Of a stretch of DNA of 64,000 bases, positions 4,901 through 21,133 are shown one piece after another. Numbering within the stretch: position 1 is the first letter of the stretch; every line of letters begins with the position of its first letter. The position numbers were made by a program, and so were the translations under genes. Source of the stretch: Sphingomonas anseongensis (GTDB lineage Bacteria; Pseudomonadota; Alphaproteobacteria; Sphingomonadales; Sphingomonadaceae); contig NZ_JAMGBC010000001.1 in NCBI RefSeq assembly GCF_023516495.1, positions 1,822,501-1,886,500 on the forward strand, in the 5' to 3' direction. Below the pieces are notes generated by a model. The model did not search any database. It saw only the letters and a list, made by a program, of their open reading frames with translations, and was not told the DNA's origin.

Positions 4901-6040
4901 CTACAGCTGCTTTTCGTAGATCCGGTAACGGTGGTTGACGTAGGCGCCGGGTAGCTCCGCGATCGACAGCATCCCCTTGTTGTCCTCGAGGATCCAGCCG
5001 AACTCGCCGGTGCCGATTCCGAACTTGCCGACGCAGTCGCGGCGGGTGAACTCGATCAGCATGAAGGCAAGCTGCGAGGCGAGGCGGGTTCCGTGGAGCT
5101 TCTTGGCCACTCCCATCAGCGGCACGCGGGCGCGGCGCGTGCGCGGCTTGCGAAGGCGCCACAGCAACTTCATCCAGCCAAACGGGAAGAGCTCGCCGTT
5201 GAGGTCCTTGATCAGCTCGTTGATGTCGGGGAGCGTGATCATGAAAGCGACCGGCTCGCCGTCATATTCGGCGACGCGCACGAGTTCGTTGTAGATGATC
5301 GGCTTCAGCTTCTTGCCGGCGTAGGCGATCTCGCTCTCCGTCAGCGGGACGTAGCCCCAATTGGCCGACCAGGCGTCGTTCAGGAGGTTGAGGATGATCG
5401 CCGCTTCCTGGGCGAACTTGCGCTTGTCGACCTGCCGGATGCGGATCCTCGGATTGCGCTCGCCCATCGCGACCAGCCGGTCGATCTTCGGGTCTTCCCA
5501 GCGGGCGATGTCGACCTCGTAGGTGAGGAGGTCCTTGGCCTTTTCGTAGCCGGCGCCCTCGATCCACTGGCGATATTCGGGACGGTGGTGACCCATCATC
5601 GCCGTCGGCGGCTGGTCGAAGCCCTCGATCTCCAGCCCCGGCTCGTCCCAGATCGACAGGCTGATCGGCCCGAGCGCGCGGTTCATGTCCTGCTCGCGCA
5701 GCCAGTCCTCAGCGGTGGCGATGAGCGCTGAAGCGGCTTCGCCGTCGAGCGCCTCCAGCATCCCCCACTGGCCGGTCCCCTGCTCCATATGCTGCTGGAC
5801 GAGCTGATCGACCTGTGCGCTGATCCGGCCGACGATTTTGCCGTCCCGCTCCGCCAGCCACAGCTTCGCCTTCGCATGCTCGAACCACGGATTCTTGCCG
5901 GGCGTGATGAGGCCGTGGACCTCGTCCTTCAGCGGCGGAACCCAGGCAGGGTCGTCGCGATAGACCTCCCATGCGAAGTCGACGAAGGCCTTACGGTCGG
6001 CCTTGGTCTCGACCGGACGGATGGTAGGACTGCTTGCCAT
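4901..6040 (-). CDS. GNAT-fold protein of unknown substrate (N-acetyltransferase-like)
   Basis: This is a 379-residue cytoplasmic protein. The N-terminal third looks like a GNAT domain (RPVETKADRKAFVDFAWEVY, then KLWLAERDGKIVGRISAQVD). A central part resembles a second, degenerate acetyltransferase half (NELVRVAEYDGEPVAFMITLPD). Alphaproteobacterial homologues are commonly labelled N-acetyltransferase or, less credibly, dATP pyrophosphohydrolase. I see no motif that names the substrate. It is divergent from the desaturase at 6169, with the promoter region between 6040 and 6169. Confidence 0.7.
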   Translation of the reverse strand: MASSPTIRPVETKADRKAFVDFAWEVYRDDPAWVPPLKDEVHGLITPGKNPWFEHAKAKLWLAERDGKIVGRISAQVDQLVQQHMEQGTGQWGMLEALDGEAASALIATAEDWLREQDMNRALGPISLSIWDEPGLEIEGFDQPPTAMMGHHRPEYRQWIEGAGYEKAKDLLTYEVDIARWEDPKIDRLVAMGERNPRIRIRQVDKRKFAQEAAIILNLLNDAWSANWGYVPLTESEIAYAGKKLKPIIYNELVRVAEYDGEPVAFMITLPDINELIKDLNGELFPFGWMKLLWRLRKPRTRRARVPLMGVAKKLHGTRLASQLAFMLIEFTRRDCVGKFGIGTGEFGWILEDNKGMLSIAELPGAYVNHRYRIYEKQL

Positions 6041-6168
6041 TGCGGACGGCTAGCGTGGGGCGAAGGCGAGCGCCAGTGCGGGAATGCGCTCGTGCGCCCT
6101 CGCATGGAAGCGCGCAATCATTGATACGCCACGATGGCGCCACTATCTCCGTGCACAGGCAAGCACTT

Positions 6169-7263
6169 ATGAACAAGACGGCAACCCTTGAGCGCACTTC
6201 GGCCGCGCCCGCATCCGCGCGCGATGCCGTTCGTGCGGGCGACGACAAGGCGATGCTGAAGGCCGCCGCGAACCTCACTCGCGACCTCAACTCGCCCAGC
6301 GCCCTCATCTACTGGGCCGACCTGCTCGGCTCTGCGCTGCTCGGCTATGCAAGCCTTGCGGCGGCGATTCTTGCTCCGTCGACGGCAGTTGCAGGGGTGG
6401 CCGGGCTGGTTGCGGTACTGGCGTTGTATCGCGCCGGAAGCTTCATCCACGAGCTGACCCACCTGAAGCCGCGGGCGGTGCCCGGATTTCGCTTGGCGTG
6501 GAACCTGATCATCGGCATTCCGCTTCTCGTGCCGTCCTTCCTCTACGAAGGCGTGCACAACCAGCACCACGCGAAGACCTATTACGGGACCGCGAACGAT
6601 CCCGAATATCTGCCGCTGGCGCTGATGAAGCCGTGGACCCTGCCCGTATTCCTGGTCGCCGCGATCCTGGCGCCGGTCGGGCTGTTCATCCGCTTCGCGA
6701 TCCTCGCTCCGCTGTCGCTCCTCTCGCCCAAGCTTCGGCGGATCGTCGTCGAGCGATATTCGGGACTGCAGATCAACCCGCTCTTCCGCCGGCCAAAGCC
6801 GGAAGGCGAGTTCGCTCGCGATTGGATGCTTCTGGAGATCGCGTGCAGCGTCTGGGCGATCGCGCTTCTTGCATTGACTGCGGCCGGCATCATCCCGCTT
6901 CGCGATTTCCTGATCTTCCTTGCAGTCGCGTCGGGCGTGATGTTCCTCAACCAGGTGCGCACGCTGGTTGCGCATTTGTGGGAGAATGAGGGCGAGGCGA
7001 TGAGCGTCACCGCCCAGTATCTCGACAGCGTCAACGTTCCGCCGCCCGGCACATTGCCGGTCTTCTGGGCGCCGGTGGGCCTGCGCTATCACGCACTTCA
7101 CCATCTGCTTCCGGGACTTCCCTATCATGCGCTTGGAACGGCGCACCGGCGGCTGTGCGCGGAGCTGGAGCAGGATTCCATCTATCACCACGCAAGCCAT
7201 CGCGGTCTGTCGCCGCTGGTGCTCCGGCTCGCGGCCAGCAGCTGGCGAGGGCGCGCGGACTAG
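6169..7263 (+). CDS. Membrane fatty acid desaturase
   Basis: This is a 364-residue integral membrane di-iron desaturase. The three histidine boxes are visible: HELTH at residue 94, HNQHH at 130 and HALHH at 308, with hydrophobic segments between them. It would introduce a double bond into a membrane acyl chain or oxidise another lipid. The exact substrate cannot be read from the sequence. ATG 6169 gives the family-like N-terminus; the frame is open further upstream without good start context. It stands alone between a GNAT-like gene and a small secreted protein. Confidence 0.88.
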   Translation: MNKTATLERTSAAPASARDAVRAGDDKAMLKAAANLTRDLNSPSALIYWADLLGSALLGYASLAAAILAPSTAVAGVAGLVAVLALYRAGSFIHELTHLKPRAVPGFRLAWNLIIGIPLLVPSFLYEGVHNQHHAKTYYGTANDPEYLPLALMKPWTLPVFLVAAILAPVGLFIRFAILAPLSLLSPKLRRIVVERYSGLQINPLFRRPKPEGEFARDWMLLEIACSVWAIALLALTAAGIIPLRDFLIFLAVASGVMFLNQVRTLVAHLWENEGEAMSVTAQYLDSVNVPPPGTLPVFWAPVGLRYHALHHLLPGLPYHALGTAHRRLCAELEQDSIYHHASHRGLSPLVLRLAASSWRGRAD

Positions 7264-10890: not shown

Positions 10891-11988
10891 CTATTCCTCG
10901 CTTCGGATAAGGACTGCTTCGCCGACAAGAAGGAACAAGAAGAAAGGCGCCCAGGCTGCGAGCATCGGCGGGTAGGCGCCGACATTTCCCATCGCCAGGC
11001 TGAAATTGTCCGCGACGAAATAGGCGAAGCCGAGCGCCATTCCGATGCAGGCGCGCAGGAGGACCTGGCCGGACCGCGCAAGGCCGAATGCGGCCACCGC
11101 GGCGAGGAGCGGCATCAGCAGGATCGACAATGGTCCCGAGATCTTGTGCCACATCCCGGCGCGCGCTGCGGAGGTCGTCTTTCCGGCCGCCTCCATGTCC
11201 TCGATCTTTTGCCGGAGGGGGAAGAAGCCGGTCTCGTCGGGGTCGACCTTGGCGAGCGTCAGCTCCTCGCGTGCGACGCCCTCGAGCGCTGTCGTGCGGG
11301 GCAGCTTGCGGACCAGGTTCATTCCGGCATCGTAGACTCGAACGTTGTCGAGCCTCCAGGCGGAGCCCTCCGGCACCGCTCGAGCGGCATCGACGATGCG
11401 TTTCAATTCGCCGCCCTGGCGCTCGTAGATGGTCAGCCCCTCCGCGCGGAAGCTGCTTCCGTGCCCGGCGACCTGCCTTGCGCGAACCAGGCTGCCGTCG
11501 TGGATCAGCCAGACGTTGCTGAGCACTCCGCTTTCCGGTGGAATCGGCTTGTAGTCATTGTCGGTCCAGGCGTTTACGACCCGCGCCGAGCGGACGACGA
11601 CGGTCTCGTTGAACGCGAAGGCGAGCACCGCGACGGCGACGCTTGCGACGATCAGCGGAGCGAGGATCTGGTGGGCCGAAATGCCGGCCGCCTTCATCGC
11701 AACCACCTCGCTGTTCTGGTTGAGCCCGACGAAGACGATCAGAGTCCCCAGAAGCACGGAGAACGGAAGGAAGCGCGACACGAGCAGCGGGATCCGGAGC
11801 CCGACATATTCCCAAAGCTGCGCATCGCCGTTGCCCGGGACCGCGAGGATCTTTCCGGATTCGCCGAGAAGGTCGAGCGCCATGAGGACCAGCACCAGCC
11901 CGACGAGGACGGCGAAGCTTCGGGTCAGGTAGAGGCGCACCGTGTAGAAAGCGAGCTGGCGCGACGGGAAGAATTCGAGGTTGATCAC
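10891..11988 (-). CDS. lptG: LptG-type lipid export permease (LptF/LptG family)
   Basis: This is a 365-residue permease with an N-terminal membrane helix pair, a large periplasmic beta domain (residues about 130-260, containing NVWLIHDGSLVRARQV) and three C-terminal helices. That is the layout of the LptG/LptF half of the LPS extractor LptB2FG. The GTG start at 11988 overlaps the stop of lptF as GTGA. An upstream open frame inside lptF is only a shadow. In organisms where sphingolipids replace LPS the cargo may be a glycosphingolipid; this is an inference from the neighbouring genes, not visible in the protein. Confidence 0.88.
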   Translation of the reverse strand: MINLEFFPSRQLAFYTVRLYLTRSFAVLVGLVLVLMALDLLGESGKILAVPGNGDAQLWEYVGLRIPLLVSRFLPFSVLLGTLIVFVGLNQNSEVVAMKAAGISAHQILAPLIVASVAVAVLAFAFNETVVVRSARVVNAWTDNDYKPIPPESGVLSNVWLIHDGSLVRARQVAGHGSSFRAEGLTIYERQGGELKRIVDAARAVPEGSAWRLDNVRVYDAGMNLVRKLPRTTALEGVAREELTLAKVDPDETGFFPLRQKIEDMEAAGKTTSAARAGMWHKISGPLSILLMPLLAAVAAFGLARSGQVLLRACIGMALGFAYFVADNFSLAMGNVGAYPPMLAAWAPFFLFLLVGEAVLIRSEE

Positions 11989-13184
11989 GCCGGGCGTGCC
12001 CGCGGCATCAGCGAACGGATCCGGCGGACGAGCTTGGCCGCCGCCCATTCGAGCGCTCCGATCGGCTGGCCGCCCGGCTTGTGCGCGATCACGTGGTACA
12101 TCCAGCCGATCAGCGCGACGAGCATGGTGAACGGCACCCACATCGCGAGAATGGGGTCGAGGCGCCCTTGGGCCCCGGCAAATCGACCGTACTGATTGAC
12201 CTTGTGGTAGGCGACGACGAGCACGATCCCGACGAAGATGCCGAGCGCCGACGTGCTTCGCTTCGGCGGCACGGCCAGGGCGACGGCCAGCATCGGAAGC
12301 ATCGCCATCATCAGGATCTCGACCACCCGGAAATGGAAGTTCGACTGCGCGCCGAGCATCTGCTCCCGGCTCTTCGCTTCGCCGCGATAGCCGAGGCGGA
12401 ACAGCTCGCTGAAATATAGCTCGTCATAGTCGAGGCCGCGCCCGCGGAAGGGATCGATCGCCGGAACAGTGATCGGAAGGTCGTAGCTGTTGAAGGCGAG
12501 CGTGCGGGGCGAGGCGAACTTGGGCGATTGCTGAACCAACTTACCGTTGTGAAGCCTGAACAGGATCACACGCGGGTCGTCGGTCGACAGGAAGCGGCCG
12601 CCCTGCGCGGTTGCGGCGACGCTTCCGCCGTGGCCGTCGTCGGCAGCGACGAAGATGCCCTGCAGCCGAGTCCCGTGCTCCTCGCTCCTGTCGATGCGAA
12701 GCGTAAGGCGCTTGCCGATGTGGTTGAATTCGCCGACCTTTATCGACGCTCCGAGAGCGCCCGAGCGGAGGTCGAAGCGGAGGCCTTCATATTTGTAATG
12801 AGCGTAGGGATTGAGGTAGCCGACGATCACAGCGTTCAGCACCATCAGGACCGCCGCGTACATGTAAGGCACGCGAAGGAGGCGGCCGAACCCGACGCCA
12901 ATGCCGCGCAATGCGTCGAGCTCCGACGACAGCGCCAGCTTCCGGAACGCCAACAGGATCCCCATCAGGAGCCCGATCGGGATTCCCAGCGAGAAATATT
13001 CGGGGAGTAGGTTGGCGAGCATCCGCCACACCACGCTGACGGGGCCGCCCGTGTTGACGACGAAGTCGAACAGCCGGAGCATCTTGTCGAGCACCAGAAG
13101 CATCGCCGCCAGGATGAGGGTCCCGAACAGCGGCACCGCGATCGAGCGGGCGAGATATCGGTCGATGAGCGTCAGGCGGCTCAA
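11985..13184 (-). CDS. lptF: LptF-type lipid export permease (LptF/LptG family)
   Basis: This is a 399-residue partner permease with the same family architecture: helices near residues 12-35, 60-80 and 100-120, a periplasmic domain with SYDLPITVPAIDPFRGRGLDYDELYF, then three helices near the C-terminus. The pair would pull an amphipathic lipid from the inner membrane into a periplasmic bridge, powered by LptB, which is not encoded here. It is coupled to lptG by a 4-base overlap. It diverges from the lipid kinase gene at 13297, so the two share a 112-base promoter region. Confidence 0.9.
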   Translation of the reverse strand: MSRLTLIDRYLARSIAVPLFGTLILAAMLLVLDKMLRLFDFVVNTGGPVSVVWRMLANLLPEYFSLGIPIGLLMGILLAFRKLALSSELDALRGIGVGFGRLLRVPYMYAAVLMVLNAVIVGYLNPYAHYKYEGLRFDLRSGALGASIKVGEFNHIGKRLTLRIDRSEEHGTRLQGIFVAADDGHGGSVAATAQGGRFLSTDDPRVILFRLHNGKLVQQSPKFASPRTLAFNSYDLPITVPAIDPFRGRGLDYDELYFSELFRLGYRGEAKSREQMLGAQSNFHFRVVEILMMAMLPMLAVALAVPPKRSTSALGIFVGIVLVVAYHKVNQYGRFAGAQGRLDPILAMWVPFTMLVALIGWMYHVIAHKPGGQPIGALEWAAAKLVRRIRSLMPRARPA

Positions 13185-13296: not shown

Positions 13297-14346
13297 ATGT
13301 CGAAAACACAGCTGAAGGAAAATGAGGCGATGCCGGTCGCGACGCCTTCGGCTGCGGCCGAGTGCCGCCGGCTGGCATCGAGGCCGCGCGTTGCCCTCCT
13401 TTCGAACCCCAGGTCCACCGGAAACATCGCCAAGCTGTCCCGGATCCGGAGCTATTGCGCCGAGCACCCCGACATCTTCCACTACGAAGTCGAGCATGTG
13501 GACCAGATTGGCGACGCACTGACGTCGATTGCGAGGGTGCGGCCCAAGATGCTGGTCATCAACGGCGGTGACGGCACCGTCCAGGCGGCGCTGACGGCGA
13601 TCCACAACGGCAATCATTTCGAAGGCTCGCCGCCTCCGGTCGCGGTCATCCCGAGCGGCAAGACCAACCTGATCGCCCTCGACCTCGGAGTGCACGGCGA
13701 CCCCATCGTGGCGCTCGAGCGGCTGGTCGAGCTCGCCCAGGGCGACCTTGGCAAGCATCTCGTGGCAAAGGAACTGATCGCGCTTCGCGAGGATGGATCG
13801 GAGCGGCCGGTGATCGGCATGTTCCTCGGCGGCGCCGGCCTTGCCGACACCATGCTTTACTGCAGGAACAAGATCTATCCGCTCGGCCTTCCCAACGCTG
13901 TAAGCCACGGGCTGACGGCGATCGCGGTCCTGTTCCGGCTGCTGTCCGGCATAAAGGCGAGCTTCCTCCCGCCAAAGGCAAGCATGCTTCAGGTCTCGAC
14001 CGGCTCGACCCATTCGATCACCGGCCGCTTCACCCTGCTCATCGTCACGACGCTCGAGAAGCTCCTCCTGTCCGGCGAGATGGGTGGCGAGGGGCGCGGG
14101 CCGCTGAAGCTGGTTGCGATCGAGGAGCGGCCGTCGTCGGTGCTCCGTGCGCTGATCGCCGGGATGACCGGCGGCTACAAGGGCCGCAAGATGCGCGGAA
14201 TCCACTTCGAGGAAGCGGACGAGATCACCATCGAAGGCGACAGCTCCAACGTCATCCTCGACGGCGAGACGTTCCGCGCCAATCGCGGAAGCCCGATCAG
14301 CCTAAGGTCGGCCCGGCCGCTGTCCTTCGTCCGCCTCGCGGCCTAG
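13297..14346 (+). CDS. Diacylglycerol-kinase-family lipid kinase
   Basis: This is a 349-residue lipid kinase of the DAGK/YegS/sphingosine-kinase catalytic family. The core begins at RVALLSNPRSTGN, where SNPRST is the nucleotide-binding strand and turn. It is followed by MLVINGGDGTVQAALTAI with the invariant GGDGT motif, and by PVAVIPSGKTNLIALDLG. The C-terminal beta domain includes GRFTLLIVTTLEKLL and a late ILDGETF turn. It would phosphorylate a membrane lipid hydroxyl using ATP. The acceptor could be diacylglycerol or, given spt 3 kb away, ceramide; motifs alone cannot tell these apart. It is followed after 10 bases by the next gene, with which it is probably co-transcribed. Confidence 0.88.
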   Translation: MSKTQLKENEAMPVATPSAAAECRRLASRPRVALLSNPRSTGNIAKLSRIRSYCAEHPDIFHYEVEHVDQIGDALTSIARVRPKMLVINGGDGTVQAALTAIHNGNHFEGSPPPVAVIPSGKTNLIALDLGVHGDPIVALERLVELAQGDLGKHLVAKELIALREDGSERPVIGMFLGGAGLADTMLYCRNKIYPLGLPNAVSHGLTAIAVLFRLLSGIKASFLPPKASMLQVSTGSTHSITGRFTLLIVTTLEKLLLSGEMGGEGRGPLKLVAIEERPSSVLRALIAGMTGGYKGRKMRGIHFEEADEITIEGDSSNVILDGETFRANRGSPISLRSARPLSFVRLAA

Positions 14347-14356
14347 GCCTTCCCAC

Positions 14357-15220
14357 ATGCGCGAGCTTAGGGACCTCGTCGCCGAGGAGCTGGATTCGCC
14401 CGTCGATAAACGGGTGGCCGAGTTCGCCGAAGCCATCGCCAAGGCGCACGGCAAGGCGGCGCGGGCGGTGCTCTTCTACGGCTCCTGCCTTCGCCAGAAG
14501 CAGCTCGAAGGGCTGATGCTCGATTTCTACCTGATCGTTTCGGACTATCGCGAGGCGTACGACCGCAAATGGCTCGCCGTCGCGAACCGGCTGCTGCCCC
14601 CCAACGTCTTCTATTTTGAGCACGGCGGGCTCGTCGCCAAATATGCGGTGCTGAGCGAGGCGGATTTCTACCGTCTCAACGGCCCGGAAGCGAGCAGCGT
14701 CTCGGTGTGGGCGCGTTTCGCCCAGCCTTCGCGGCTGGTGTGGAGCGCCGACGAGCGCGCTCGGGTGGCGGCAATTGACGCGGTATCCCGAGCAGCGCCG
14801 ACGCTGCTCGCAGCGGCCGGGCGAGTCGAGGGTGAAGTCCCGCTGGATTGGTGGCGGCGGGCGTTCGCGCTCACATATTCCGCCGAATTGCGAGCGGAGG
14901 GGCGGGCACGTGCAAGCTCGGTCGTCGACGTGGAGCGGGAGCGGTACGAGCGCTTCAGCGCCCCTGCCATAGCCGCGACACCGCCCAAGCTGCCCCGCCA
15001 GCCGAGCTGGGCATGGCGCAGGGTGGAAGGGAAATTCCTGTCGGTGGCTCGGCTTGCCAAGGCCAGCTTCACCTTCGCCGGCGGCGCCGACTACATTGCC
15101 TGGAAGATCAACCGCCACGCCGGAACGCAGATCGAGCTGAAGGGCTGGCAGCGGCGCTGGCCGCTTCTGGCAGGAATTACCTTGCTTCCGCGGCTGCTGC
15201 GGTCGGGGGCAATTCGCTAG
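14357..15220 (+). CDS. Nucleotidyltransferase-like protein of unknown function (Tam41-like pattern)
   Basis: This is a 287-residue protein without signal peptide. Near residue 36 it shows AVLFYGSCLRQ, a G-S turn, then LDFYLIVSD about 20 residues later. The GS...DxY spacing suggests a nucleotidyltransferase fold and recalls the mitochondrial CDP-diacylglycerol synthase Tam41, though the match is weak by eye. The C-terminus (GGADYIAWKINRHAG) is basic and hydrophobic, suiting membrane contact. It sits 10 bases after the lipid kinase. If the kinase makes a lipid phosphate, this enzyme could activate it with a nucleotide; that is inference. Its 3' end overlaps the convergent histidine kinase by 44 bases. 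Confidence 0.6.
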   Translation: MRELRDLVAEELDSPVDKRVAEFAEAIAKAHGKAARAVLFYGSCLRQKQLEGLMLDFYLIVSDYREAYDRKWLAVANRLLPPNVFYFEHGGLVAKYAVLSEADFYRLNGPEASSVSVWARFAQPSRLVWSADERARVAAIDAVSRAAPTLLAAAGRVEGEVPLDWWRRAFALTYSAELRAEGRARASSVVDVERERYERFSAPAIAATPPKLPRQPSWAWRRVEGKFLSVARLAKASFTFAGGADYIAWKINRHAGTQIELKGWQRRWPLLAGITLLPRLLRSGAIR

Positions 15221-17165
15221 ACTGGAGAGCGGTGGCGACTGCGGATGCTAGCGCGCCGACCGTGAATGGCTTGCGCAAAAGCTCGTGGCCGATGAGCGAG
15301 TCGCTGCCGCTTTCCCCGACATAGCCGGTGACGAACAGCACCGCGAAATCCTGCCGCTTTTCCTTCAGGATCTTGATCAGTTCAGGCCCGGTCATTTCCG
15401 GCATGATCACGTCGCTGATGACGAGGTCGAAGGTCTGCTTGTCGAAAATTCCGATCGCTTCTTCGCCGCTGGCGCAGGCGACCGGGTCGTAATCCAGGTC
15501 CTGGAGCGCCTCGACCGTGGAGGTCCGCACCCGCGGATCGTCTTCTACGACGAGGATCCGTGCTCCAGGGACTCGTTCCTCCTCGTTCATGCGACTTGTC
15601 GCGGCATGGAGCCGGATCGGTGGCTGGACCGAGCTTCGGGGCAAATAGATGGAAACGGTCGTGCCCTTGCCGACCTGGCTGTCGATCCCGACCTCGCCTC
15701 CGGACTGGTGGGCAAAGCCGAAGATCTGGCTGAGGCCGAGACCGGTCCCCTTGCCGACTGGCTTGGTCGTGAAGAACGGTTCAAACGCGCGTTCCTTCAC
15801 CTCTGGCGGCATTCCGCACCCGGTGTCGGTGACGGAGATGCGGACATATTCGCCGGGCCGAATATCGCCGACCTCGTTTGCGGAAACCTTAACGTTGGCA
15901 GTGCTGATCTTCAGCCGTCCCGCGCCGTCCATCGCGTCGCGGGCGTTCACCGCCAGGTTGACGATCGCATTCTCGAGCTGGTGCGGATCGACGTAGACGG
16001 GCCAGGTGTCTGCGGCGAGATCGACCTTTATGCGGACCCGCTCGCCCAGGGTGCGGTCGAGGAGGTCCGACATTCCCCCGACGAGTTGCCTTGGCTCGAC
16101 CCGCTCAGGCAGCAAGGGCTCGGAGCGTGCGAAGGACAATAATCTCCGGGTCAGCGCCGCGGCGCGGGTCGCGCCCTCCATCGCATTGTTGAGATGGGCC
16201 ATCACCTCTCGGCGAGGACCGTTGAGCCGCCTTCGCGCGAGATCGACTCCGCCGACGACCACGGCGAGCATATTGTTGAAATCGTGGGCGATTCCGCCGG
16301 TCAGCTGGCCTACTGCCTCCATTTTCTGGACCTGTCGCAACTGTGCTTCCGCAGCCTCGCGTTCGGCCGCTTCGGCCTTCAGCGCCTGGTTCGCCTCCCA
16401 AAGCTCGTGGGTGCGGTCTCGAACCGCCTGCTCCAAGACCTCCGCACGCTCGGATTCGTTCTCCGCCAGTCGACGCGCATAGGTGAATTGCCGAAGCGCC
16501 TGGATCGCCACCGCCCCCATCAGGATCGCGCCGATTCCGACCGCAAGCCCAAGCCAGCTCAGATAATCGGTGAAGCGGTCGGCGCGAGCGGAGAAGAACC
16601 GAGTCCGCTCCATCCGCTGCTGGAGGATCGTCCGCTCGTTCTCGGCGATCTCGCGGAGCTTGGCGTGGAGCGCGGGCTGCAGCGGCGGGTCCGCCTTCGG
16701 GCCGGCGGCCGCATAATAATAGCTGATCCCGAGGTCGCCCTGGTGGGCGGTGATCACCCGGGCGACATTGTCGAACTTGGCGCCCAGCTGGTCGTAGATG
16801 GCCTGCAGCTCCGCGAGCCGGTCCTGCTGGTCGCGGGTGGTGCTGGCGGCTCGCTTCAGCTGCCCGATCTGGTGGCCCGCAAGGCGCCAGTAGCTGAGAT
16901 AGACGTTGCCGCTGTTCTTGATATCGGCATCGAGCGCGAACCGCCCGAGCGCTGCCTCGGATCGCGACACGTTGGCGTCGATCGAGCGCGTAAGGATGGT
17001 GACGTCGTAGGCGTGGCGCTCCAGCTCGAGCGCCTTGTCGCGTTCTCCGTTGGACCAGGCGACGAGGACGACGAGGCCGAGAAGGAGGAGGACTGCGACT
17101 AGCGCGCCGGCGGCGGCTCCCCCGCGCCTCCAGTCGAAGCGTACCGCATCCCCACTCGGCGTCAT
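15177..17165 (-). CDS. Hybrid sensor histidine kinase with C-terminal receiver
   Basis: This is a 662-residue membrane sensor. Its order is: helix near residues 18-38, a periplasmic helical sensor (residues about 40-200), a second helix in [17 protein letters not shown], a coiled coil ([20 protein letters not shown]), HisKA with the phospho-histidine in [17 protein letters not shown], HATPase with [10 protein letters not shown] and GTGLGLSQI, then a receiver with [10 protein letters not shown], the acceptor aspartate in [13 protein letters not shown], and FVTGY and RKPF. ATG 17165 lies 49 bases after the spt stop, so the kinase may be the last gene of the acp-spt operon. No separate response regulator is adjacent. 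Confidence 0.9.
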
Positions 17166-17214
17166 GGCGTCAGTGTAGCCATGTCTGCAAGTCGACGAAA
17201 GTCGCCTGTCAGGA

Positions 17215-18414
17215 TCAAATGCAGCCGGTCGCCCGCCCAGCGGCTCCGAACATCGCAAGAATCTCGCCGACCTGCTCGCTGGAATGCTCGGAGCAAAGCG
17301 AGCAGCGGAGCAGCGTCTTGCCCGCGGGCGTTGCGGGCGGACGGGCTAGATTGACGTACAGGCCTTCGTTGAGGAGCGCCTCCCACATGGCAGCCCCGGT
17401 CTCCAGATCGGGCATGATGACGGCAATGATCGCCGACTGCGGCTCCTCGGTCCCCAGGGTGAAGCCGAGCTGGCGAAGTCCGGCATGCAGGCGCTTCGAA
17501 TTCTCCCACAGGTGGGCGCGCTTGTCGGCCGAGTTCATCAGCTTGCGGATCGAGGTTGCGGCGGTCGCGACGACCGACGGGGGAAGCGAGGCGGTGAAGA
17601 CGTAGGGGCGGCACACCAGCCGCAGGATCTCGAACTTGGGATGGTTGGAGACGCAGAAGCCGCCGACCGTGCCGACCGACTTCGAGAAGGTGCCGACGAT
17701 GAAATCGACGTCATCGATGACGCCCTGGGCCTCCACGACGCCACGGCCATTGTCGCCGATGAAGCCCATCGAATGGGCCTCGTCGACCAGCACCATCGCC
17801 CCGGCAGCCTTGGAAACGGCGACCATCTCCTTCAGCGGAGCGACGTCACCCAGCATCGAATAGACGCCTTCGAGGACGACAAGCTTGTCTGCCCCTTCGG
17901 GAATACGCCGCAGCCTGTTCTCGAGCGCGGCGACGTCATTGTGGCGGAACGGCACGACCTGGGCGTTTCCGAGTGCGCAACCGTCATAGATCGACGCATG
18001 GCTGTCGATGTCGAGGACGATGTAATCGTCCTTGCCCGCCAGCGTGGATATGATCCCGAGGTTCGCCTGATAGCCGGTCGAAAAGACCATCGCGTGGTCC
18101 ATCTTGTAGAAGTCTCGGAGCGCTTCCTCGACGGCGCGGTGCCCGGCATACGTCCCGTTGAGGACTCGACTCCCGGTCGTTCCCGACCCGAATTCGTCGA
18201 GCGCCTTCTTGCCGGCGGCGATCACGTCCGGATCGAAGGTCATCCCCATGTAATTGTACGTGCCCAGAAGGATCGTGCGCTTGCCGTTGCAGATCGCGAC
18301 GGTCGGGCTTTCGACCTTCTCCATCACCAGGTTGAACGGGTCGGTAAGGCCCGTGTCCAGGAGCGTCTGGCGCTGCTGGATGAGCGGGTCGAACTTGGAG
18401 AAGAGGTCGCTCAT
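17215..18414 (-). CDS. spt: Serine palmitoyltransferase (sphingolipid biosynthesis)
   Basis: This is a soluble PLP enzyme of the alpha-oxoamine synthase family, 399 residues. It condenses L-serine with a long acyl thioester to give 3-oxosphinganine, the first step of sphingolipid synthesis. The PLP lysine is K245 in GTFSKSVGTVGG. The stacking histidine is H139 in DSHASIYDG, with D211 and H214 in VDEAHSMG. Long stretches such as TILLGTYNYMGMTFDPDVI match, from memory, the enzyme of Sphingomonas paucimobilis. The N-terminus is about 20 residues shorter than in that protein. It lies 16 bases after the acyl carrier protein gene, which supports an ACP-bound acyl donor. Confidence 0.95.
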   Translation of the reverse strand: MSDLFSKFDPLIQQRQTLLDTGLTDPFNLVMEKVESPTVAICNGKRTILLGTYNYMGMTFDPDVIAAGKKALDEFGSGTTGSRVLNGTYAGHRAVEEALRDFYKMDHAMVFSTGYQANLGIISTLAGKDDYIVLDIDSHASIYDGCALGNAQVVPFRHNDVAALENRLRRIPEGADKLVVLEGVYSMLGDVAPLKEMVAVSKAAGAMVLVDEAHSMGFIGDNGRGVVEAQGVIDDVDFIVGTFSKSVGTVGGFCVSNHPKFEILRLVCRPYVFTASLPPSVVATAATSIRKLMNSADKRAHLWENSKRLHAGLRQLGFTLGTEEPQSAIIAVIMPDLETGAAMWEALLNEGLYVNLARPPATPAGKTLLRCSLCSEHSSEQVGEILAMFGAAGRATGCI

Positions 18415-18430
18415 GAACGGCTTGCGGGGC

Positions 18431-18673
18431 TCAGCCGCAGAGCTTGCGGACGGCTTCCGCGAGCTGTCCGACAGTCTCGATCTCCGCCTGCATGTTCATG
18501 CTGATGATGATGTCGAACTCGTCCTCGATGCTCGCGACGAAGTCGAGCACCGTGAGGCTGTCCCACTCCAGATCCTGCTGGAACCGCGTTTCGGGCGTGA
18601 CCGGGACCCCCTTCTTGTTGAAGGCCTCGACCTGCTCCGCCACGCGGGTGTAGATTTCGTCGCTCTCGTCCAT
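18431..18673 (-). CDS. Dedicated acyl carrier protein of the sphingolipid operon
   Basis: This is an 80-residue acidic acyl carrier protein. Ser39 in EWDSLTVLDF is the phosphopantetheine attachment site (DSL motif), followed by the usual helix III and C-terminal helix. ATG 18671-18673 is the first start that gives a normal ACP length; the open frame further upstream is a shadow. Standing directly in front of spt, it probably carries the acyl chain used by serine palmitoyltransferase, as in the Caulobacter ceramide locus. It is separate from the housekeeping fatty-acid ACP, which is not in this window. Confidence 0.93.
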   Translation of the reverse strand: MDESDEIYTRVAEQVEAFNKKGVPVTPETRFQQDLEWDSLTVLDFVASIEDEFDIIISMNMQAEIETVGQLAEAVRKLCG

Positions 18674-18749
18674 GGCAAAAGCCCCTATTCGCGAGGCCGC
18701 CCTTTCGCAACGCAATGGGGCGCGAATACGGCGGCAGTCGTCGGCAATC

Positions 18750-21133
<2,384 letters not shown>

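Follow-up and report, generated by a model that had tools for sequence, protein, structure and literature searches.

With anionic phosphosphingolipids, some bacteria can live without LPS, and sensitivity to polymyxin is set by these lipids. In Caulobacter crescentus, the formation of ceramide phosphoglycerate (CPG) needs both CC_1160 and CC_1161; CC_1159, CC_1153 and CC_1152 act later, and neither CpgA nor CpgD is required for CPG to form (PMC11324152). CpgB (CCNA_01218 / CC_1160) is a proven ceramide kinase whose activity in vitro on diacylglycerol (DAG) is close to that on ceramide, and deletion of cpgB leaves phosphatidic acid levels unchanged (PMC10331486). CpgC (CCNA_01219 / CC_1161) carries an InterPro domain of the CDP-DAG-synthase type, and an NDP-ceramide has been suggested (Olea-Ozuna et al. 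2024, PMC11324152); papers of 2025 and 2026 state its mechanism as unidentified (PMC12275187, PMC13228409). CpgD is a CDP-glycerate synthase (PMC12275187). The genes CC_1162 to CC_1159 are ordered spt-cpgC-cpgB-cpgA (PMC11324152). Tam41 is a peripheral CDP-DAG synthase found in mitochondria and in certain bacteria. A Tam41 from Firmicutes has this activity, and in published structures the Tam41 active site retains just one acid where three are usual (PMC11646218).

We analyzed a 64,000-nucleotide stretch of Sphingomonas anseongensis DNA (the window, taken at its full length) in which the gene for a lipid kinase (P1) is followed by one for a nucleotidyltransferase-like protein (P2). The pair corresponds to Caulobacter cpgB/cpgC and is therefore not new to the literature, and the idea of activation is already in print as speculation (Olea-Ozuna et al. 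2024, PMC11324152); a literature search for a bacterial pathway under the term CDP-ceramide found no paper. The fold, motif, neighborhood and co-occurrence evidence added here supports the NDP-ceramide idea and makes it specific, in the form of a Tam41-type CTP:ceramide-1-phosphate cytidylyltransferase.

The lipid kinase and its Tam41-like partner

The earlier note had described two genes 10 bases apart, the first encoding a lipid kinase and the second possibly a Tam41-like protein. We confirmed both open reading frames (349 and 287 amino acids) on the same strand, with the 10 bases GCCTTCCCAC between the stop of P1 and the start of P2 (Table 1). P2 is not a chance open reading frame: of 61 related genomes, 51 have its frame intact, and it lies with the kinase inside one block conserved across about seven families of the order.

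Table 1. Positions of the pair and of neighboring genes in the window, with the evidence for each assignment
Feature	Coordinates	Strand	Evidence
CerS (bacterial ceramide synthase)-like GNAT-fold protein	4901..6040	-	PF00583 1e-5
Fatty acid desaturase/hydroxylase family protein (pathway role speculative)	6034..7263	+	PF00487 3.3e-26
LptF/LptG-family permease (LptG2-like)	10891..11985 (ORF extends to 12141)	-	PF03739 2.7e-70; conserved
LptF/LptG-family permease (LptF2-like)	11985..13184	-	PF03739 1.9e-60; conserved upstream of pair
P1, lipid kinase, predicted ceramide kinase (CpgB-like)	13297..14346	+	PF00781, GGDG/DGE, single copy, cpgB position
P2, Tam41-like nucleotidyltransferase, predicted CTP:ceramide-1-phosphate cytidylyltransferase (CpgC-like)	14357..15220	+	AF2 model, Foldseek/VIA, PF09139 homologue, motifs
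Hybrid histidine kinase	15177..17258	-	HisKA, HATPase_c, receiver
Serine palmitoyltransferase (Spt)	17215..18414	-	NF047603 801 bits, cut-off 670
Dedicated acyl carrier protein (ACP; AcpR-like)	18411..18710	-	PF00550 E 4.7e-9
CerR-like NAD-dependent epimerase/reductase	18750..19853 (ORF; true start probably near 19661)	-	PF01370/PF13460

P1 is, as had been proposed, a lipid kinase; it belongs to the DAG kinase family (DAGK_cat, E 3.5e-14, 52.9 bits), and a profile search returned YegS / DgkB-type lipid kinases as its closest solved relatives. Its GGDG motif (G90 G91 D92 G93) is invariant among 23 homologues, and its DGE motif is invariant too. Similarity to relatives begins only at about residue 28, which leaves the start codon uncertain. 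The CxxxCxxC motif of eukaryotic CERK, as defined in PMC10331486, is absent from the P1 translation, where the cysteines are isolated only. A search of the genome found one copy of this type of kinase, located where cpgB stands in complete clusters. P1 is very probably a ceramide kinase. Like CpgB, it is of the DAGK type with GGDG and without CxxxCxxC, lies beside the cpgC position and spt, and occurs in the class sample in Spt-bearing genomes only; the two were likened by description and position rather than by direct alignment, and, unlike at the CpgB locus, CpgA is not adjacent in the window genome.

Profile searches place P2 at the edge of recognition. P2 itself matched nothing in Pfam at E up to 1, PF09139 (Tam41) included, the whole genome yielded no PF09139 match at E up to 10, and the sole trace in NCBIfam was a very weak one to the lincosamide nucleotidyltransferase LnuH (E 0.22). 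A P2 profile run against PDB sequences gave only a short nucleotidyltransferase (E 0.13 and 0.045), so Tam41 homology is not visible by that route. PF09139 was reached by a full-length P2 homologue, with 29 bits against a cut-off of 24; two further homologues scored 23.2 and 21.9 bits, and four of the 42 P2 family members matched the model at E up to 1. With the homologue above the cut-off as a bridge, the P2 family is by sequence profile homologous to PF09139, and P2, below the cut-off on its own, counts as a remote homologue of Tam41 and not as a filed member of PF09139. A P2 homologue also aligned with the solved SpTam41 over KYxVxS...RFxxP, at an E of 1.5 that is not significant alone.

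The earlier note had picked out a motif by eye as GS...DxY. Its GS and D hold, and its precise form is GS...DFY, within FYGSC(x11)LDFY. Across 42 homologues the invariant residues of P2 are Y41 G42 S43, D56, P82, K95, R120, Q123 P124 and E177-x-R179-x-E181. After the GS motif only one acidic residue, D56, is invariant, which fits the Tam41 active site reported in PMC11646218.

We predicted the structure of P2 with AF2 and made an alignment of 23 homologues (A1). For the resulting model (pLDDT 89.8, pTM 0.87), the five best PDB matches in Foldseek were all Tam41 (E 1.1e-7 to 2.3e-6). VIA-align matched model residues 14-240 to a bacterial Tam41 with CTP-Mg (7ecd) at Z 17.2 over 215 residues and the model to fission yeast Tam41 at Z 14.6 and 14.2, and the next family, aminoglycoside nucleotidyltransferase, followed at Z 7.7. 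The nucleotidyltransferase core, on which the earlier suggestion depended, is present in the predicted model, and the match to 7ecd covers both this core and the Tam41 domain that follows it. The model and the PF09139 homologue together bear out the suggestion and support P2 as a predicted nucleotidyltransferase that is Tam41-like by a wide margin.

With Tam41/TAMM41 (PF09139; PDB 6ig2, 6ig4, 7ecd), P2 shares the predicted fold (Z 14-17), the one acid after the GS motif, the K-Y-x-V-x-S and R-F-x-x-P segments and a helical C-terminal part. It differs in its identity of only 14-17%, in its score under the Pfam model and in its predicted substrate, ceramide-1-phosphate rather than phosphatidic acid. 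The likeness to CdsA / CTP_transf_1 (PF01148) lies in the type of reaction predicted for P2, from lipid phosphate and CTP to CDP-lipid, whereas CdsA is an unrelated integral membrane protein with its own copy in the genome.

Sphingolipid genes around the pair and across genomes

We read the substrate as ceramide because Spt, ACP, CerR, LptF/LptG and CerS-like genes are all in the window. The ACP gene adjoins Spt in most loci examined within the order, the CerR-like gene beside Spt-ACP is conserved, and the CerS-like GNAT protein is 40-46% identical to the product of the GNAT gene in complete sphingolipid clusters. About seven other families of the order share the block LptG-LptF / kinase-P2 / Spt-ACP-CerR, with P2 at ~35-46% identity. 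Most of the other families in the order have P2 and Spt directly facing each other. A hybrid histidine kinase gene lies between them in the window, and its product is CckA-like but scores far under the CckA cut-off. The CerS-like gene and the desaturase-family gene stand back to back; by analogy with CC_0202 of Caulobacter, a proposed ceramide fatty-acid hydroxylase, the latter could encode such an enzyme.

Elsewhere in the genome, at ~2.007 Mb, a CpgA-like gene (40-42% identity) is directly followed by a CpgD-like gene (30-37%). The CDP-alcohol transferases of the genome are PgsA-like, PssA-like and CpgA-like only, and an ordinary CdsA gene is present, so CDP-DAG formation does not require P2.

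A more distant genome carries a fuller cluster (L161), in which AasR-CerR-ACP-Spt is followed by P2-kinase-CDP-alcohol transferase and then by a metallophosphatase, LptF, LptG, and CerS- and CpgD-like genes; its P2 is 46% identical to ours. The spt-P2-kinase-transferase run in L161 and in a further locus (L162) has the order of CC_1162 to CC_1159, and P2 in L161 thus lies, like CpgC, between spt and the ceramide kinase gene, whereas in the window the histidine kinase gene stands between spt and P2. From gene order and the published description, we infer that P2 is orthologous to CC_1161. In some clusters, a second CDP-alcohol phosphatidyltransferase gene follows LptG (L161, 15615-16823, + strand). 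Its product is a candidate CDP-ceramide-using enzyme, and the window genome has no obvious second transferase of this kind.

Across 385 alphaproteobacterial genomes, the kinase and P2 were found in exactly the same 42, a co-occurrence as strong as possible. The two genes are adjacent and co-directional in 38 of these, with 15 to 95 bases between the matched ends, and in the other four both are present, unlinked or on separate contigs. Spt scored over threshold in 49 genomes. Of the 42 genomes with the pair, 41 are among these, and the remaining one has an Spt open reading frame beside the pair, bringing Spt to 42 of 42. The Fisher p-values for co-occurrence (4e-57 and 6e-46) are indicative only, as they ignore shared ancestry. 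Eight Spt genomes are without the kinase and P2, which suits a head-group branch on a common ceramide core; these eight probably make only other (e.g. glyco-) sphingolipids. The pair was also found in one genome of the phylum outside the Alphaproteobacteria.

A probable route through CDP-ceramide and its alternatives

We estimate a probability of roughly 0.7 that the pair provides the first two steps of a phosphosphingolipid head-group branch running via CDP-ceramide. The neighboring Spt-AcpR-CerR set and CerS would supply ceramide, which the DAGK-family kinase P1 would convert to ceramide-1-phosphate. P2, which probably uses its helical C-terminal part to lie on the membrane, would then transfer CMP from CTP to ceramide-1-phosphate, yielding CDP-ceramide and pyrophosphate. 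Addition of glycerate, or of an alcohol like it, by a CMP-releasing transferase would lead to ceramide phosphoglycerate. CpgA and CpgD would extend this product, and the adjoining LptF/LptG-type permeases would probably export it. The finding that CPG needs cpgB and cpgC and does not need CpgD is as expected if CpgC activates ceramide-1-phosphate. It is fairly probable that a Tam41 branch has shifted from phosphatidic acid to ceramide-1-phosphate, with P2 and CpgC as its CDP-ceramide synthases. The earlier note had pictured a kinase-to-CDP-lipid module serving either CDP-ceramide or a salvage route. The Spt neighborhood supports the ceramide alternative, the salvage alternative went unsupported, and we infer both the CDP-ceramide reaction of P2 and CPG as the product of this sphingomonad. 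The CpgC step thereby becomes a specific prediction, CTP + ceramide-1-phosphate -> CDP-ceramide. If it is true, bacterial phosphosphingolipids are made by the full Kennedy/CDP-lipid logic of kinase, cytidylyltransferase and CDP-alcohol transferase, with CDP-ceramide as the intermediate.

Since Tam41 enzymes are CDP-DAG synthases (PMC11646218) and CpgB accepts DAG in vitro (PMC10331486), the pair could also be read as a phospholipid salvage route, with P1 as a DAG kinase and P2 as a CDP-DAG synthase acting on phosphatidic acid. We consider this unlikely: the genome has a normal CdsA, the pair is restricted to Spt-bearing genomes whereas phospholipids are universal, and the unchanged phosphatidic acid of the Caulobacter cpgB deletion (PMC10331486) argues against it. 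P2 as a replacement for CdsA was rejected because the CdsA gene is present.

A different division of labor was the one first proposed for CpgC, in which P2 itself would couple glycerate or phosphoglycerate to ceramide-1-phosphate, through an enzyme-bound CMP-ceramide or another activated donor. It would account for genetics having placed only CpgB and CpgC before CPG, with no separate transferase found, but Tam41 enzymes release their CDP-lipid, and condensation without activation has been called 'energetically not very favorable' (PMC11324152); we hold one-enzyme coupling to be quite improbable. The faint similarity to LnuH, and ANT4 and HalB as the next structural matches after Tam41, would suit an antibiotic-modifying enzyme, an MNT antitoxin or another signaling nucleotidyltransferase whose adjacency to the kinase is incidental. 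The similarity of ANT4 and HalB, however, lies mainly in the core domain and does not exceed Z 7.7, whereas Tam41 reaches Z 17 across 215 residues, and P2 and the kinase co-occur perfectly even where unlinked, so such a role is very improbable.

Plasmid-borne clusters and annotation

IncP plasmids also carry CPG-type sphingolipid clusters. We found them on pDCB2 (NZ_CP065408.1), a conjugative plasmid of Diaphorobacter with a Tn3 transposase and mer genes, and on pPNP1 (NZ_CP073662.1), a Pseudomonas plasmid with a class 1 integron. The clusters contain an Spt-type PLP enzyme, an ACP, an acyl-AMP ligase, LptF/LptG, a lipid kinase, a P2 homologue, a CDP-alcohol transferase and a CpgD-like gene. 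This lipid branch seems horizontally mobile. NCBI labels the plasmid P2 homologues 'hypothetical protein', so the link made here helps to annotate a gene that occurs across the Alphaproteobacteria and also in some members of the Beta- and Gammaproteobacteria.
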